A stretch of DNA of 64,000 nucleotides, from contig QCWI01000008.1 in assembly GCA_003149635.1 (NCBI GenBank), positions 62,001 through 126,000 on the forward strand. The letters are read 5' to 3'. This document shows positions 4,074-10,496 of the stretch, piece by piece. The notes below the pieces were generated by a model that was not told the origin of the DNA, searched no databases, and saw only the letters and a program-made list of their open reading frames with translations. A program made the position numbers and the translations under genes. Position 1 is the stretch's first letter. The number at the start of each line of letters is the position of its first letter. This DNA is from Fluviicola sp. XM-24bin1 (GTDB lineage: Bacteria > Bacteroidota > Bacteroidia > Flavobacteriales_D > Crocinitomicaceae).

Positions 4074-6392
4074 TTATTCGGTAATAGTCCCAAAAGTAGG
4101 GTTGTCGCTCTTAAAAATCTTCACCATGAGTATCGACCCATTAGGGGAGTCTCCTTCTTTTGAGGGAACATTTGCCAGTTCAGGATATTTGACTTTTAGG
4201 TTTCCGAAGGCATCCGACCACTTGGTTATTTCCATCACGAATTCTCCCGTGAAAGCATCATAAAAGGCAATTTTGTATTTACTTGTGAATTCCATTCCTG
4301 ATACTTTCAAGATCTGTGCACCACCTATACCGCGCTTGTCGTTCCAATCAAAAGCTACCGCTTCTTCATAAACATCAGGGTAGAAATTCAAATCGCTTTC
4401 GCTTAAATCGCAATCGCAAAAATCTGGATTTTCGTCGCACCACGATTCACGCATGGTATAGCGATTGACCGTTCGATTACTAATAACAGCTACTGCGCGT
4501 TCGGCCCGTTTGCCTTCCGTTAAATACAATAATTCGGCGCGTTCATCTTTTCGGATGTCAAATCCAGCAAACCATTCCCCTTGATTCAATGGAACTTCGG
4601 AGAAAAATTCGTCAACTACGGGCATTACCGACCAACCTAATTCTCTACGACGCACGCTGTCATAAACCGCCATGTTGTTGTTATAATGCCAAGGCATCCC
4701 GGCTCCCGCCGCTCCTGTAAATGGACTCATCACATACATCTGACGGAACGTAAACAAATTATCGCATCCATGTTGTCCTGTTCCAACCTCGCTATACACC
4801 AATGGCTTGTCGTAATTTTCTTCTTCGACCTTCTGCTTTTTGGCGAACTTCTTCATTTTGATCAAATCACCGTGCTGATATTCATATTTCTTCGGCCAAG
4901 AGAAATAATCGTTGTAGGTCATTACGTCTACGTACTCAGAAAAATAGGCTTCATCACCACAGGCTAATGCCGCACCATCTTCGGGGTCATACGGATATTC
5001 TTCCGGAGTCACGTAAATAGGTGCACCACCATAATTCACAGCATAAGGATGATCAAAAAAGCGCAAATCTTCTTTCAAATAACGTCCCATTTCCACCTGC
5101 CAATCGCTGATTTTTCTAACGTAAGACGTATCATTGAAGTACGGCTTGTATTGAGATGCCTGATCCAATTTACAATCATCCGTTAGTTCGAAAAGGACTC
5201 CAGAGAAGTTGATCTCGTTGTACAATTCGAAAATTCCTATGTGCGTTGAATAGCCCCATCGTGCTACCATATAACGCAAGCGATTTTGATAATACCGAAT
5301 CAAATCCTTGTCGGTCAGAAATTCATCGACTGTTTCTACACCATACGTCGGATCGGTGTGATAACAAAACCCTACATCTTTCTCGAACCAATTGGGCAAC
5401 AAATCGCACTGACACATGGAATCTCGGGCATCCGTCCAATCCCAGAAGTAAAGCCCAAAAACACCGATATAGGACAATTGGGTCATGTACGACATATTCC
5501 AATGAATTCGAATATCGATATCCTCACACTTTTCCACCAATTGATCCATTTCCCAGGCTTGCGGCAAGCGATCGGTATAATCTCCAAGAATCTCGAATTC
5601 CACTTCCGTCGTCCAAGGAGTCGTCATATATCGGAAGTAATTCCCTCCCGAATTTCTCAGTTCTTGAATTTTATCCAAATACGCAACGTATTCAGCCGGA
5701 TTAGCCCCACCGCTTCTATATCCTGTCGCAGTACCGCCTTGCGTTGGCATATTCATTCCTAAAGGGAGAAACAACTCGCCATCTACTTCGAAATAATGAT
5801 TGTTCTCGCTGATCTTCATAAATCCGGACAGATCAGATCGCACCACTGTAAATTCTAATTCTGGAGAAATCAAAGTTTCTTTGGTTCCTCTCCCTCCAAC
5901 ATAAGCGATGCACTTCCATTTGCCCGTTTTCTGAGGAGTGAATCGAACTCGAAAATTGGAATGCGTTACGTTTCGAATGACGCCCCAACCTTTCATGTTA
6001 CTGTTTCTTCGATATTCCTGATAATAGAAACCATATCCTTTAATCGTATCCATAGCTCCATCTTTATCCGTATGGATAAAATCCACCGTAATATCGACAT
6101 CTACTGGATCGAAGGGATTGAGTTTCTCCGCCCCTTTTTTTCGGGTGATGAAATTGTCAACTTTTTCAGAAATATCTCCGGGCATGGAAACCGCCAACTC
6201 AAGCTTTCCGTTTTTCTTTACCGCATCCAGCGCACCGTAATTTACGGGGGAAAGCTGTACAAATTTCCCTGGCCTGTCTTTATGAATCCAATGATTCGAT
6301 TCAACAGAATTTGAAGCCAAATCAGCTTGCCCAAAAGCTGTAAATGAAAGGCAGAATAAAAGGAAACTGCTAAAAGAACTTATGCTTGCCAT
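4074..6392 (-). CDS. Secreted glycoside hydrolase, GH5/clan A-like, with N-terminal DUF5060-type domain
   Basis: From ATG 6392 the protein is 772 residues with a signal peptide (MASISSFSSFLLFCLSFTAFGQ). In this numbering a beta-sandwich domain of the DUF5060 kind spans about 95-185 (ends in NFRVRFTPQKTGKWKCIAYV, the usual 'R..P...G.W.Y' block). A TIM-barrel-like region follows, with candidate acid/base Glu393 in ELYNEIN and candidate nucleophile Glu535 in VYSEVGTGQHG; both fit clan GH-A. A C-terminal beta domain covers roughly 680-772. A longer frame reaching 6488 exists, but its extra 32 residues carry no signal and lie inside the upstream gene. The start overlaps the end of the lipoprotein gene by 23 bp, suggesting co-transcription. 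Substrate unknown. Confidence 0.75.
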   Translation of the reverse strand: MASISSFSSFLLFCLSFTAFGQADLASNSVESNHWIHKDRPGKFVQLSPVNYGALDAVKKNGKLELAVSMPGDISEKVDNFITRKKGAEKLNPFDPVDVDITVDFIHTDKDGAMDTIKGYGFYYQEYRRNSNMKGWGVIRNVTHSNFRVRFTPQKTGKWKCIAYVGGRGTKETLISPELEFTVVRSDLSGFMKISENNHYFEVDGELFLPLGMNMPTQGGTATGYRSGGANPAEYVAYLDKIQELRNSGGNYFRYMTTPWTTEVEFEILGDYTDRLPQAWEMDQLVEKCEDIDIRIHWNMSYMTQLSYIGVFGLYFWDWTDARDSMCQCDLLPNWFEKDVGFCYHTDPTYGVETVDEFLTDKDLIRYYQNRLRYMVARWGYSTHIGIFELYNEINFSGVLFELTDDCKLDQASQYKPYFNDTSYVRKISDWQVEMGRYLKEDLRFFDHPYAVNYGGAPIYVTPEEYPYDPEDGAALACGDEAYFSEYVDVMTYNDYFSWPKKYEYQHGDLIKMKKFAKKQKVEEENYDKPLVYSEVGTGQHGCDNLFTFRQMYVMSPFTGAAGAGMPWHYNNNMAVYDSVRRRELGWSVMPVVDEFFSEVPLNQGEWFAGFDIRKDERAELLYLTEGKRAERAVAVISNRTVNRYTMRESWCDENPDFCDCDLSESDLNFYPDVYEEAVAFDWNDKRGIGGAQILKVSGMEFTSKYKIAFYDAFTGEFVMEITKWSDAFGNLKVKYPELANVPSKEGDSPNGSILMVKIFKSDNPTFGTITE

Positions 6393-6891
6393 CCGGGTGT
6401 TTTTCGTAGACTTTTTTATAGTGGAAAGTAGTATCATCTTCTTCCATCTGACCTTCATCCTGCCATCCGGCGTACACGCGGATTCCATCGTCTTCCGTCT
6501 TCATTACATAGTAGTAATCGCCCGCCCCAGCGAACCATCCGCCCACTGCAGCTAAAGCCTCTTTCGGAATATCGTAATCGTGGTAATCCTGAAGATCCAA
6601 CGGAGCGCAAGCATTACACTCTCCTACTTTATGCGAAGTACTGTCGTATTCAACGTACACATCGTAATGAGGAATTTCAAATTCATCCTCTCCTTTATCA
6701 CGACAAACCAACCATGCTTTGTGAATTGCCGTTTTGGGTGGCGTACCATCACCTGTAACAGATAATTTTTTTGGTTTTCTTTTTTTGGCAGTTAGCGAGG
6801 GTTTTGATCCATCCTCAGATTCGTTAGAACCAGCGTCACTACTGCAAGAGAAAAGGATTGAAAAACTTAAAAAGAACAGTACAATTTTCAT
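6370..6891 (-). CDS. Small lipoprotein upstream of the glycoside hydrolase
   Basis: From ATG 6891 the product is 173 residues and starts MKIVLFFLSFSILFSC, a lipoprotein signal with the lipid-accepting Cys at 16, followed by an acidic/Ser linker and a basic KKRKPKK stretch. The mature part (HKAWLVCRDKGEDEFEIPHYDVYVEY...) is compact; it has CNAC and ends at KHPDGKHKFF. I do not recognise the family. The frame stays open far upstream, but that extension has no coding character and would overlap the sigma-factor promoter. It is divergent from the ECF sigma gene and overlaps the hydrolase start by 23 bp. Confidence 0.65.
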   Translation of the reverse strand: MKIVLFFLSFSILFSCSSDAGSNESEDGSKPSLTAKKRKPKKLSVTGDGTPPKTAIHKAWLVCRDKGEDEFEIPHYDVYVEYDSTSHKVGECNACAPLDLQDYHDYDIPKEALAAVGGWFAGAGDYYYVMKTEDDGIRVYAGWQDEGQMEEDDTTFHYKKVYEKHPDGKHKFF

Positions 6892-6939
6892 TCGTTTGAC
6901 TTTGAAATTAAAATTACTGAAAAAAAATCGCCCATGCAC

Positions 6940-6969
6940 GCAGCGTTTTCTGAATAACGTGCATCTATA
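6940..6969 (+). promoter_or_regulatory. Candidate ECF sigma-dependent promoter, copy 1 (autoregulatory)
   Basis: GCAGCGTTTT at 6940-6949 is followed 14 bp later by TCTATA (6964-6969). The same GCAGCGTTTT-n14-TCT[AT]TA arrangement occurs at 9114-9143 with identical spacing; within the spacer C-n-TG is shared as well. Only 9 bp separate TCTATA from the GTG start of the sigma gene, so the mRNA would have almost no leader. Confidence 0.55.
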
Positions 6970-6978
6970 GTAATAAGC

Positions 6979-7527
6979 GTGAAAAAATACTCTGACAAAG
7001 AACTGATCCGTCGTTGTCTTAAAAACAAATCGGATGCCCAGCGAATGCTCTACGAAAAGCACTCGTCCATGGTATATACCGTTTGTTATCGATATGCGAA
7101 AAATGTAGAAGATGCGAATGATTTGTTGCAGGAAACATTCATTAACGTATTCTCTAATCTGGAGAAATTCAGTGGATCGGGATCTTTTGAGGGCTGGGTA
7201 CGACGTGTTGCCGTGAATTGCGCCATTCGACATTATCAGAAATCGGAAAGACGTATTGACGACGGTGACATCGATTACAGTCCAGATGCACAGACGTATG
7301 CCGATGCGATTGATCATTTAAGTGCTGAGGAAATAATGCACCAGATCAACCAATTACCAGATGGATATCGCATTGTGTTTAATATGTATGCAATTGAAGG
7401 GTATAGCCACAAGGAAATTGCTGAACACCTTAACATTTCCGAAAGTTCTTCGAGATCGCAATTGACGCGCGCTCGTGTTGCTTTGATGGAAAAGGTGGGC
7501 GCATTGAAAAAAGTAAAACTGGGATGA
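6979..7527 (+). CDS. ECF (sigma-70 family) RNA polymerase sigma factor
   Basis: The 182-residue protein has region 2 at about 22-88 (YEKHSSMVYTVCYRYAKNVEDANDLLQETFINVF, with the typical D-A-x-D-L-x-Q-E-x-F core) and region 4 at about 122-175 (LPDGYRIVFNMYAIEGYSHKEIAEHLNISESSSRSQLTRAR), a standard helix-turn-helix for the -35 element. The start is GTG 6979: residues 5-15 (SDKELIRRCLK) match the usual N-terminus of Bacteroidota ECF factors and no ATG lies upstream in frame. It overlaps the next gene by 4 bp (ATGA), so its presumed anti-sigma partner is translated from the same message. Confidence 0.93.
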   Translation: MKKYSDKELIRRCLKNKSDAQRMLYEKHSSMVYTVCYRYAKNVEDANDLLQETFINVFSNLEKFSGSGSFEGWVRRVAVNCAIRHYQKSERRIDDGDIDYSPDAQTYADAIDHLSAEEIMHQINQLPDGYRIVFNMYAIEGYSHKEIAEHLNISESSSRSQLTRARVALMEKVGALKKVKLG

Positions 7528-9095
7528 AAAACGAATTTGAAAATAGCGACAAGCGCTTGCAGGAAAAACTAGAAGGTTTCCGCATGGCTGCACCGGAAGG
7601 CGCCTGGGCTGGAATCGAAGGTAATATTGGAGGCAAGTCCGATAGACGAGGTGGATTCTTCTACCTCTGGATCGCGCTACTCTTTATTGGAGTTACGGGT
7701 GCGGGAGTTTTTACTTTTATATACATGAGCAATGACACGGATGCAATCGCAGCCCAATCATCCAAAGTTGCTGAGAATGCTTCATCCACAAATCAAGACC
7801 TTACTGCTTCAAATCAAAATGTAAATTCAAATTCAGCGAATCAAAACAGATCAGATCACGCTGCAAGCAATACCAATCCAGAAGGATTAATTTCTGGAAA
7901 CAAAACGGACAATACTGGGAATTCGAACAACAAAGTCGCAGACGGTTCGAACACTTCTAGCAAGAAAAATTCCAGTGCTTCCGATGCAACGATCTTGAAT
8001 AACACGACGCGCAAATCCAATTCGAAAGATGCATCAACATCCGGGGATAAATCTATTCGCTCAAAGACAAACTCAAGCAAAAGCGATAGAAAAGTCATAA
8101 ACGCTGACGACGAAACTATTGCGACTTCGGACAAGTCTATGTCTAAGAATAATGATGAATCACTCTCGGACAACGAGAACGAATCAGGAAAAACGACCGA
8201 CCACGTCATTGTCAGCACAACCAATCAGGCCACCGCACATGAAACAGAAGGCAAGGGTGATTCAGATGAAGCTAGAACGGTAACGAAATCAGATTCAGCT
8301 GAGATGGATTCAAAAGCGAATCCAACTGAAGTTGCACATACTGCTAGTCAACCACAAATTCCGACTTCGATGCCAGATCCAGACGCTGACGCAAAAGCGA
8401 GTTGGTCGATAGAAACTGGTATCGATGTGTCGTCGTTCAATATGAATCACACGGCAAACTCTAGCAGCCTTCAACAATTCTTGAATGGATCGTACTCGCA
8501 AAACTTTGCGCAGGCTGCGTTTTTACGTTTAAATTATCAGCCATTCCAGCGCTTCTCATTCCACACTGGATTGGAGTACGCTCAGAACAAGGCGACTCAA
8601 GATTACTCATGGTTGACAACCATCTCAAGCTTCCAATACGATACTGTAGGATACTATTTTGATTCCATTACACAGCAACAATTGCCAATCATTGATTCCG
8701 TTGAGACCATCTCACAGATTGAAAATCAAGAACAATACCGAAGCGTTGTAAGTCAAGTGTATATCCCATTTGGTGCAATGTTCCATATTCCATTCGGACG
8801 CAAATCGGAATTGGGTGTTAATCTTTCAGGTTTGGTAGGAATTCGAACAGGAAGTACAGGAGAAATCTTGTTCGATGAAAATGGAAATACGATCAGTTCT
8901 ATGGAAGCCTATCGACAAATTAATTTCTCCGCCAGAGCCACGTTGCGATATAGTTACTTCCTTGGAATGAAGTCTGCAGTGTACGTGGAACCTTACTTTG
9001 GATTTGGTCTAAACGACCGTTCAAACACAACATTACCATTCGGATCTAGATTTCGAAATTCCGGTGTTCGCGTAGGTTTCCGCTATACTTTCTAA
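7524..9095 (+). CDS. Putative dual-membrane-spanning anti-sigma factor with outer-membrane beta-barrel
   Basis: The 523 residues split cleanly. Residues 1-44 are a cytoplasmic head with the motif APEGAWAGIEGNI, similar to the 'P..W..I' helix found at the start of Bacteroidota sigma-coupled membrane proteins. Residues 45-67 are one hydrophobic helix with no signal-peptidase site. Residues 68-292 are a low-complexity Ser/Asn/Lys/Asp linker. Residues 293-523 alternate as amphipathic strands and end ...GVRVGFRYTF, the terminal Phe of an outer-membrane barrel. One chain would therefore run from cytoplasm through inner membrane and periplasm to the outer membrane. Gene order (ECF sigma first, 4-bp overlap) and architecture resemble the dual-membrane-spanning anti-sigma factors known in Bacteroides thetaiotaomicron. 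Sigma binding is inferred. Confidence 0.75.
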   Translation: MKNEFENSDKRLQEKLEGFRMAAPEGAWAGIEGNIGGKSDRRGGFFYLWIALLFIGVTGAGVFTFIYMSNDTDAIAAQSSKVAENASSTNQDLTASNQNVNSNSANQNRSDHAASNTNPEGLISGNKTDNTGNSNNKVADGSNTSSKKNSSASDATILNNTTRKSNSKDASTSGDKSIRSKTNSSKSDRKVINADDETIATSDKSMSKNNDESLSDNENESGKTTDHVIVSTTNQATAHETEGKGDSDEARTVTKSDSAEMDSKANPTEVAHTASQPQIPTSMPDPDADAKASWSIETGIDVSSFNMNHTANSSSLQQFLNGSYSQNFAQAAFLRLNYQPFQRFSFHTGLEYAQNKATQDYSWLTTISSFQYDTVGYYFDSITQQQLPIIDSVETISQIENQEQYRSVVSQVYIPFGAMFHIPFGRKSELGVNLSGLVGIRTGSTGEILFDENGNTISSMEAYRQINFSARATLRYSYFLGMKSAVYVEPYFGFGLNDRSNTTLPFGSRFRNSGVRVGFRYTF

Positions 9096-9113
9096 TTTTT
9101 TTTTCGATTCCGT

Positions 9114-9143
9114 GCAGCGTTTTTGCATCGGCCTGTCTCTTTA
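9114..9143 (+). promoter_or_regulatory. Candidate ECF sigma-dependent promoter, copy 2
   Basis: GCAGCGTTTT (9114-9123) and TCTTTA (9138-9143) repeat the motif found before the sigma gene, with exactly the same 14-bp spacer. It lies between the barrel gene stop (9095) and the ATG (9171) of the PKD-repeat protein, which makes that gene the likely regulon target. Confidence 0.55.
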
Positions 9144-9170
9144 AAAGTAAGAACATTCAAATTCCCTATT

Positions 9171-10496
9171 ATGAATAAATTACTTTTTACACTATTGTCT
9201 CTCGGACTTTATTTCTCCGCTTCGGCACAACAATGTCAGGCTGATTTCACGTACTCGGCAGTGAACGGTACGGTAACTTTTACAAATACGTCAACAGGTG
9301 GCGGCATCTGGAGCAGCTGGAACTTCGGCGACGGAAACTCCTCTTCAACTTACAGTCCAACCCACATGTACGCAACTTCTGGATCTTACCTTGTATGCCT
9401 TTCGATCTTCGATAGCCTTACACAATGTCAAAGCTCTTACTGCGACACGATTTTCGTACAGGTCTCGAACCCACCGTGTAATGCAAGTTTCACCTATTCG
9501 CAGAACAACGGAACGGTGAACTTCACGAACACTTCTTCGGGGTCGTTCTTTAGTAGCTGGAGCTTTGGAGATGGAAATTCATCCAACCAGACAAATCCAA
9601 GCAATACCTACACTTCAACAGGCAACTACGTGGTTTGTTTGACGATTTACGACAGTATAACGCAAAACCAATGTACTACGTGTGACACTATTTTTGTTCA
9701 AGCTGACACTACTGGAGGTGGCGGCGGAACGGGGTGTAACCTAACATCCAATGCGTCCACAAGCGGAAGTTCTATTGTTGGAACGGCGTCTGGAGCGTCT
9801 ATGTACCACTGGATCGTTTACGATAATTCTTGGAATTATCTATACGACACAAACAACAGCAATTTCAATTATTCTCCTGGATTCAGCGGATTGTTCAACG
9901 TTTGTATCACTGCTTACGATAGCCAGCAAAACTATTGTGATTCCACTTGCTATACTGTACAGTTAATCGATTCTACCGGTGGAAATAACTGTTTACTTTC
10001 ATCTAGCGCGTCAATGGATCAAAACGGAACCATCACTGGTACTGCTTCAGGTGCAGCAATGTACGACTGGACGGTTTACGATGATTCGTGGAATGTGCTG
10101 CACAACACGAACAACAGCAGCTTCAGCTATGCCACTAGTGGCCCTGGAACTTACAACGTTTGCCTATTTGCATACGACAGCTTGCAGAATTTCTGTGACT
10201 CAACGTGCTACACAATGGTAAGCGATACTACTCTTGGCTTCAACTTTGAGGAGAAAGAAATTGTATTCAACGTATATCCGAACCCAACTCAAGGAGTCAT
10301 CCATTTGGAAGTTTCCGAAGATCAAATTGCTGAAATTATTTTGATTGATATTACGGGGGCCGTATTGCTTCAAGAGCCGATATCGGAATCAACAACTGAT
10401 ATTGATTTGAGCCTGTATCCAAAAGGCATGTACTTCATTCACGCTTTAGGTAGAAAAGGTCAACGACTGAGCACAAGCAAAGTTCGGCGACAATAG
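9171..10496 (+). CDS. T9SS-secreted PKD-repeat protein
   Basis: From ATG 9171 the product is 441 residues with a signal peptide (1-20, ending FSASAQ). Two PKD domains (about 22-98 and 103-178) carry the WxFGDGNSS hallmark. Two further Cys-bounded repeats (about 189-266 and 274-350) share GTASGA.MY.W.VYD.SWN and NVC...YDS.QN.CDSTCYT; they look like PKD-related folds without the FGDG motif. Residues 364-438 are a type A T9SS sorting domain (FNVYPNPTQG...LSLYPKGMYFIHA). An in-frame extension to 9123 lacks a signal sequence and would overlap the promoter. The protein is predicted to be surface-attached, with a likely adhesive or structural role. It sits directly after the sigma/anti-sigma pair and is followed by a terminator. 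Confidence 0.85.
   Translation: MNKLLFTLLSLGLYFSASAQQCQADFTYSAVNGTVTFTNTSTGGGIWSSWNFGDGNSSSTYSPTHMYATSGSYLVCLSIFDSLTQCQSSYCDTIFVQVSNPPCNASFTYSQNNGTVNFTNTSSGSFFSSWSFGDGNSSNQTNPSNTYTSTGNYVVCLTIYDSITQNQCTTCDTIFVQADTTGGGGGTGCNLTSNASTSGSSIVGTASGASMYHWIVYDNSWNYLYDTNNSNFNYSPGFSGLFNVCITAYDSQQNYCDSTCYTVQLIDSTGGNNCLLSSSASMDQNGTITGTASGAAMYDWTVYDDSWNVLHNTNNSSFSYATSGPGTYNVCLFAYDSLQNFCDSTCYTMVSDTTLGFNFEEKEIVFNVYPNPTQGVIHLEVSEDQIAEIILIDITGAVLLQEPISESTTDIDLSLYPKGMYFIHALGRKGQRLSTSKVRRQ

Follow-up and report, generated by a model that had tools for sequence, protein, structure and literature searches.

In the window, a stretch of 64,000 nucleotides (contig C8, positions 62001-126000) of the 3.63 Mb, 19-contig genome of Fluviicola sp. 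XM-24bin1, the gene of an extracytoplasmic function (ECF) sigma factor overlaps that of a 523-residue protein built like the Dma anti-sigma factors, and the two are followed by the gene of a PKD-domain protein with a type IX secretion system (T9SS) sorting tail. We find it likely that this Dma-type sigma/anti-sigma pair drives its own operon, the PKD surface protein and two small RNAs, here called S2 and S3. The gene overlap, the order of the domains, a promoter-like element common to the sigma and PKD genes, and the conservation of these features are read directly from the DNA. In what follows the genome of the window is labeled G000, and its relatives carry labels such as G038 and G128.

From these features we infer the following mechanism. 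The head of the 523-residue protein would hold sigma at the inner membrane, where a single helix would anchor the protein, a long linker would cross the periplasm, and the C-terminal barrel would sit in the outer membrane. A disturbance of the barrel or of the outer membrane would free sigma, and freed sigma would transcribe from sites of the form TGCAGCGTTTT-N11-GTATCTA, activating its own operon, the adjacent T9SS-exported PKD surface protein and two unlinked small RNAs, S2 of about 100 nt and S3 of about 75 nt. These RNAs may act in trans on envelope mRNAs, probably adjusting their translation or stability.

The sigma factor and its 523-residue partner

The sigma protein matches the Pfam families Sigma70_r2 (1e-17) and Sigma70_r4_2 (9e-18), and an ATGA at 7524-7527 is common to its reading frame (6979..7527) and that of the 523-residue protein (7524..9095), with the PKD gene third in order. 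These frames bear out the coordinates, lengths and overlap given in an initial annotation of the locus. The same annotation divided the 523-residue protein into a short head, a helix at residues 45-67, a 225-residue linker and a 231-residue C-terminal domain ending in Phe, and hydropathy and composition agree with it. The best hydrophobic 19-mer lies at residue 48 (Kyte-Doolittle mean 2.2), the hydropathy peak falls inside residues 45-68 with Lys/Arg ahead of it, and the linker, residues 68-292, includes 40 Ser, 29 Asn, 25 Thr, 25 Ala, 23 Asp and 18 Lys. The C-terminal end reads GVRVGFRYTF.

An alignment of nine members, the window protein included, separates constant from variable parts. Head and helix are kept in all nine, with K15, P24 and W28 invariant, and the C-terminal domain spans 230-235 residues and ends in Phe in seven; the linker, counted from alignment column 111, ranges from 122 to 228 residues. 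Beta-type hydropathy alternation exceeds the shuffled mean in every C-terminal domain (z 1.8 to 4.6), compared with a z of at most 0.7 for the linkers. Weak matches to Pfam OMP_b-brl are found in three of the nine members (best 2e-4) and none in the window protein, and a search against solved structures returned nothing useful (best E 0.13). The barrel fold of residues 293-523 and the contact between head and sigma are to be read as predictions.

The head can be followed beyond these members. A family search supplied 30 sigma loci, in 22 of which the partner was readable (four loci without a match to the sigma pattern, and four Dma loci whose partner runs beyond the locus end, were left out). 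A head of P-x-x-W type is present in 20 of the 22 partners and the other two have the W without the P, while most of these partners have C-terminal ends that, by eye, lack the look of a barrel. The P-x-x-W head therefore follows this sigma branch while the rest of the partner is exchanged, a pattern that fits a sigma-binding head.

Related ECF genes occur in 115 of 120 family genomes. A query with the barrel finds the Dma type in six of the 120, our own included; five belong to the same genus and the sixth gives a weak match in different surroundings. At E < 1e-20, Dma is present in 10 of 34 genus genomes, again with our own, and these ten carriers include G137, which retains only the 5' part of the gene at a contig end. 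The initial annotation saw in the pair the Flavobacteriales counterpart of the Dma systems. This interpretation is supported in part: the domain order is as stated for Dma in the available text of PMC13088901, and the Dma alignment picks up five named relatives, three labeled Flavobacteriales, one Crocinitomicaceae and one 'bacterium' only.

A promoter-like element shared by sigma and PKD genes

The upstream regions of five orthologous loci revealed one element common to the sigma and PKD genes, TGCAGCGTTTT-N11-GTATCTA, with 18 box positions and 11 spacer positions per site; all searches were made at this one spacing. With up to three mismatches allowed, the window holds two matches, exactly those before sigma and PKD (0.07 expected), a number reached in none of 100 shuffles. 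With up to two mismatches, the 34 genus genomes, our own among them, hold 37 matches compared with two for a reversed control. The element precedes the sigma gene in nine genomes including ours, where the GTG start codon lies 11 nt past the -10-like box (window 6967-6979), so the sigma mRNA would be leaderless or nearly so if transcription begins a few nucleotides downstream of it. For the PKD gene a leader of about 23 nt would result.

This form of the element was not the first. An earlier pattern, which ended in GTCT and left one base of the first box free, matched our genome three times, at the PKD promoter and at two sites (on C9 and C10) without a clear adjacent target; it was replaced by the stricter element. 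A looser pattern gave 43 matches, some of them overlapping, against four for its control. Surroundings were inspected for part of the looser- and final-pattern matches, and several of the inspected looser-pattern matches lie inside genes or before unrelated ones (for example G038:C13, G038:C27, G141:C5 and G099:C37). Our genome has four element sites in the looser search and in the final one. We also considered the element as a dispersed repeat and rejected this, given four sites each with its own spacer.

The element tracks the Dma gene. A close site, defined as one with at most one mismatch, occurs in 11 genus genomes, comprising 9 of the 10 Dma carriers and 2 of the 24 others (Fisher 1e-5); when the five genomes in which the element was first read are removed, the counts are 4 of 5 and 2 of 24 (Fisher 0.003). 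Because the final form was set after the looser-pattern matches had been seen, the looser pattern, fixed beforehand, is the cleaner test, and it is found in 10 of 10 carriers and 8 of 24 others (0.0003), or 5 of 5 and 8 of 24 outside the five discovery genomes (0.011). Two genomes outside the carriers have a close site: in G091 it stands before a PKD gene, and in G141 it is internal to an unrelated gene. Several points tell against so close a link between element and pair. Extending the Dma cut-off to E values up to 1e-5 (13 genomes) changes the counts to 9 of 13 and 2 of 21 (0.0005), G123 carries Dma with no element at its sigma gene, and the PKD gene of G091 has the element, yet no close sigma or Dma was found in that genome.

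The PKD gene lies in an open reading frame of 9123..10496, with ATG 9171 as its likely start; the protein has PKD and Por_Secre_tail matches and, by a reading of its N-terminus, a putative signal peptide. The initial annotation had named it as the target from its position, and the element now lends that proposal independent support. The PKD gene adjoins dma at six of the ten Dma loci (G000, G038, G128, G099, G114 and G121), and the element precedes it at all six. At the remaining loci the PKD position is taken by a methyltransferase gene (G064) or an opposing gene (G123), or the contig continues past dma for 1.2 kb with no frame longer than 107 aa (G131) or ends (G137). In G131 and G137, element sites lie ahead of lipoprotein-like genes (L088:4410-5411 and L185:2135-3144) that are homologous to one another (46% over 322 residues) and are likely an additional sigma target in that branch. 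Separately, the element-bearing PKD gene of G091 (L186:6195-7300, G091:C42) has neither sigma nor dma adjoining and reads as short frames of 138 and 147 aa, as if it had decayed once its regulator was lost.

Candidate small RNAs and alternative readings

The element sites of S2 and S3 lie beyond the window. Each precedes a stretch of 75-100 nt that ends in a hairpin and a U-run, neither is followed in our genome by a frame of at least 90 codons, and both are found at equivalent places, by synteny, in G038 and G128. In the alignments of these three genomes, 35 of 36 box columns of the two sites show no change, compared with 4 of 22 spacer columns (nominal p 3e-10). Because the boxes served to find the sites, some of their agreement follows from the search itself, which does not hold for the shared position.

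The stop codon of a YiaAB-type gene lies 15 nt before the start of S2, which runs toward a convergent MutS2-like gene (MutS_V 5e-31). The first 47 nt of S2 contain 45 identical columns, the best such window in an alignment of 1,200 nt, and its 3' end forms a long stem followed by a U-run, with fold z values of -2.7, -5.2 and -3.3 in the three genomes and five base pairs in which both partners have changed. S3 has a divergent AsmA-like gene (AsmA 7e-7, just below the cut-off) on one side and, on the other, a convergent lipoprotein-like gene that matches no Pfam family; it shows a terminator-type stem with a U-run and fold z values of -1.6, -2.4 and -2.2. A simple terminator scan listed the S3 stem and no S2 stem, the loop of the latter being longer than the scan allows. 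Protein-coding readings of S2 and S3 were rejected, as the aligned sequences are interrupted by stops and the only ATG frame of S2 has three codons. In sum, the two loci show a sigma-type promoter, no protein frame (in our genome), a terminator-like hairpin and conservation (in three genomes only), and we conclude that they are probably sigma-driven small RNAs, like MicA and RybB in the E. coli sigma-E response.

A number of observations weigh against this conclusion. The paired changes in S2 are equalled in 31 of 500 shuffles, the S3 alignment has no pair changed on both sides, and the body of S3 is conserved no better than the upstream coding sequence. A 117-codon frame runs antisense to the MutS2-like gene in G128, beginning 109 nt past the S2 site. 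Covariance models match S2 and S3 strongly in only 3 of the 34 genus genomes, compared with ten for Dma; the best E values beyond the three members, 0.006 and 0.015, were taken as chance, and at E up to 1 some match is found in 14 and 10 of the 34 genomes, respectively, the three members included. No Rfam family matches S2 or S3 in the three loci scanned, which gave one sub-threshold match elsewhere. Searches for complements of S2, its own loci excluded, returned three matches against 13 for the control with one pattern and seven against four with another. Among the ten loci of these searches, made with S2 alone and without G-U pairs, no homologous gene recurs, and we accordingly claim no target. 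Finally, the two hairpins, each placed between convergent genes, might be terminators that these genes share.

The last point leads to an alternative in which the pair and its PKD target are real and the intergenic sites start only antisense or spurious transcripts reaching into the ends of convergent genes, the hairpins being terminators in common use and no part of functional small RNAs. The arrangement of both sites with respect to their convergent neighbors, the short distance from the YiaAB-type stop, the runs of A before and T after the S2 stem, which allow termination in both directions, and the lack of a trans target in the S2 complement searches all favor it. A terminator alone, however, needs neither boxes that hold their position in three genomes despite diverged spacers (with the caveat that the sites were selected by their boxes) nor a 47-nt block that is nearly invariant after the S2 promoter despite the interrupting stops. 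We regard this alternative as unlikely, if deserving of serious weight, and retain the reading of S2 and S3 as candidate small RNAs.

Two further alternatives concern the pair itself. The element could be read by another ECF sigma factor, with the window sigma gene merely one of its targets: our genome has 25 Sigma70_r4_2 matches (23 above the cut-off), the available text of the F. psychrophilum paper (PMC9723704) allows for overlapping ECF regulons, and in G091 the element is present without this sigma. Against this, the element follows this particular Dma gene (9 of 10 versus 2 of 24 genomes), whereas related ECF genes are found nearly throughout the family, and the broken frames of the G091 PKD gene are what loss of an activator might lead to; we consider control by another sigma improbable. 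Still less probable, and in our view very unlikely, is a reading of the 523-residue protein as an outer-membrane protein of the ordinary kind, with a signal peptide and an incidental overlap with sigma. Its lack of an informative family match and an AIA triplet at residues 73-75 would fit such a protein, but the triplet is not conserved in the alignment and the 44 residues ahead of the helix far exceed the usual n-region of a signal peptide. Moreover, the head is conserved in orthologs, and its P-x-x-W type recurs in partners of related sigmas, including ones without a barrel-like C-terminus. The simplest view is that the pair adds a member to the Dma family, given that its predicted domain order is the one described for that family.

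Table 1. Positions of the genes, protein parts and element sites (window numbering unless a contig is given)
Feature	Position	Strand	Remarks
ECF sigma factor gene	6979..7527	+	182 aa, GTG start
Dma-type anti-sigma gene	7524..9095	+	523 aa, ATGA overlap with sigma gene
Cytoplasmic head, proposed sigma binder	7524..7655	+	codons 1-44; three residues invariant in 9 members
Predicted single transmembrane helix	7656..7724	+	codons 45-67; hydropathy, position conserved
Linker, proposed to cross periplasm	7725..8399	+	codons 68-292; composition, length variable among orthologs
Proposed outer-membrane beta-barrel, C-terminal Phe	8400..9092	+	codons 293-523; beta alternation
PKD-domain protein gene, T9SS sorting tail, putative signal peptide	9171..10496	+	ATG picked by analogy with relatives; synteny
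Promoter-like element of sigma gene	6939..6967	+	CGCAGCGTTTT-N11-GCATCTA; at most 3 mismatches
Promoter-like element of PKD gene	9113..9141	+	TGCAGCGTTTT-N11-GTCTCTT; at most 3 mismatches
S2 site	G000:C8:167808-167836	-	element site beyond window
S3 site	G000:C12:36199-36227	+	element site beyond window

Related pairs and known systems

On the minus strand, at 4074-6488 and 6370-7317 and divergent from sigma, lie two genes, one lipoprotein-like and one for an 804-aa protein. The lipoprotein-like gene adjoins the locus in G038 and G128 as well, and the 804-aa protein, which has a sub-threshold match to DUF5060, is also present in G128. Our genome holds a second sigma and Dma-like pair (G000:C10:141121-142850; L142, L193), in which the partner has 390 aa and a head of the same type as the window protein, and the sigma is 39% identical. 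A small outer-membrane-protein-like gene lies upstream of this pair, no copy of the promoter-like element is found in its locus, and the pair has a counterpart in G038 (L144). Family-wide, in loci L024-L048, the gene of a related ECF sigma factor overlaps one whose product has a P-x-x-W head and a C-terminus without the look of a barrel. The window pair shares the overlapping genes and the head with most of these loci and differs from most of them in its periplasmic end. Pairs of this type are perhaps what the F. psychrophilum study lists as its ECF/anti-sigma entry.

The closest relatives of the pair by design are Dma1 and Dma2 of Bacteroides thetaiotaomicron, which go with the ECF21 sigma factors Das1 and Das2. 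As far as the available text of PMC13088901 describes it, the Dma family is confined to Bacteroidota, has ECF21 sigmas adjoining, and is laid out as head, helix, long disordered linker and C-terminal barrel. The window pair shares with Dma1 and Dma2, as described there, the four-part domain order (the barrel as predicted), the adjacent ECF sigma gene and the operon-like layout, and differs from them in its putative neighboring PKD/T9SS target, its defined promoter element and its two candidate small RNAs. The occurrence of Dma across Bacteroidota being already in print, an extension to the Flavobacteriales would alone be modest. What is new is the regulon that can be read from the DNA, consisting of the element, the putative PKD target and the two candidate RNAs. 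The direct signals and targets of Dma systems are poorly known, and the abstract of the Dma2 paper states that how Dma2 raises vesicle production remains elusive. None of the terms 'sRNA', 'small RNA', 'T9SS', 'type IX' and 'consensus' appears in the main text of that paper, and our searches of the open-licence literature turned up no report of small RNAs or of a PKD/T9SS target in connection with a Dma system. Through the element, an anti-sigma factor proposed to span both membranes is linked with a T9SS surface protein; being strict, with only four sites in 3.6 Mb of genome, the element also defines a small regulon that is fully testable.

A second comparison is offered by the SM6 promoters of F. 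psychrophilum, which in the available text of PMC9723704 cover an ECF/anti-sigma pair, the T9SS genes GldN and PorU, and the regulatory RNA Rfp11. The likeness to the regulon proposed here lies in an ECF-type promoter class that takes in a pair, T9SS genes and one RNA, and Rfp11 under SM6 is, so far as that text goes, the closest precedent for an ECF-driven RNA. SM6 is unlike our element in having a CGT box in the -10 region, a sigma that is not experimentally assigned and other targets, and its anti-sigma factor is not described in that text as spanning both membranes.

The proposed regulon can also be set beside a system from outside the Bacteroidota. Outer-membrane surveillance in E. coli is carried out by RpoE (sigma-E), which activates itself, envelope genes and the small RNAs MicA, RybB and MicL from a strict promoter, and whose anti-sigma factor, RseA, lies in the inner membrane only and is removed by proteolysis. 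The window system as proposed would resemble sigma-E in its self-activation, its envelope gene and its small RNAs from a strict promoter, and would be unlike it in that the anti-sigma factor would itself reach the outer membrane. We put forward, as a tentative view for which the odds are somewhat short of even, that the anti-sigma factor serves as a wire from the outer membrane to the cytoplasm, with the surface protein as the activating arm and the two small RNAs as the repressing arm, and that the whole is a convergent counterpart of sigma-E/MicA/RybB in a group largely without Shine-Dalgarno translation. If S2 and S3 are real, Bacteroidota and Proteobacteria acquired the small-RNA arms of their outer-membrane responses independently of each other.

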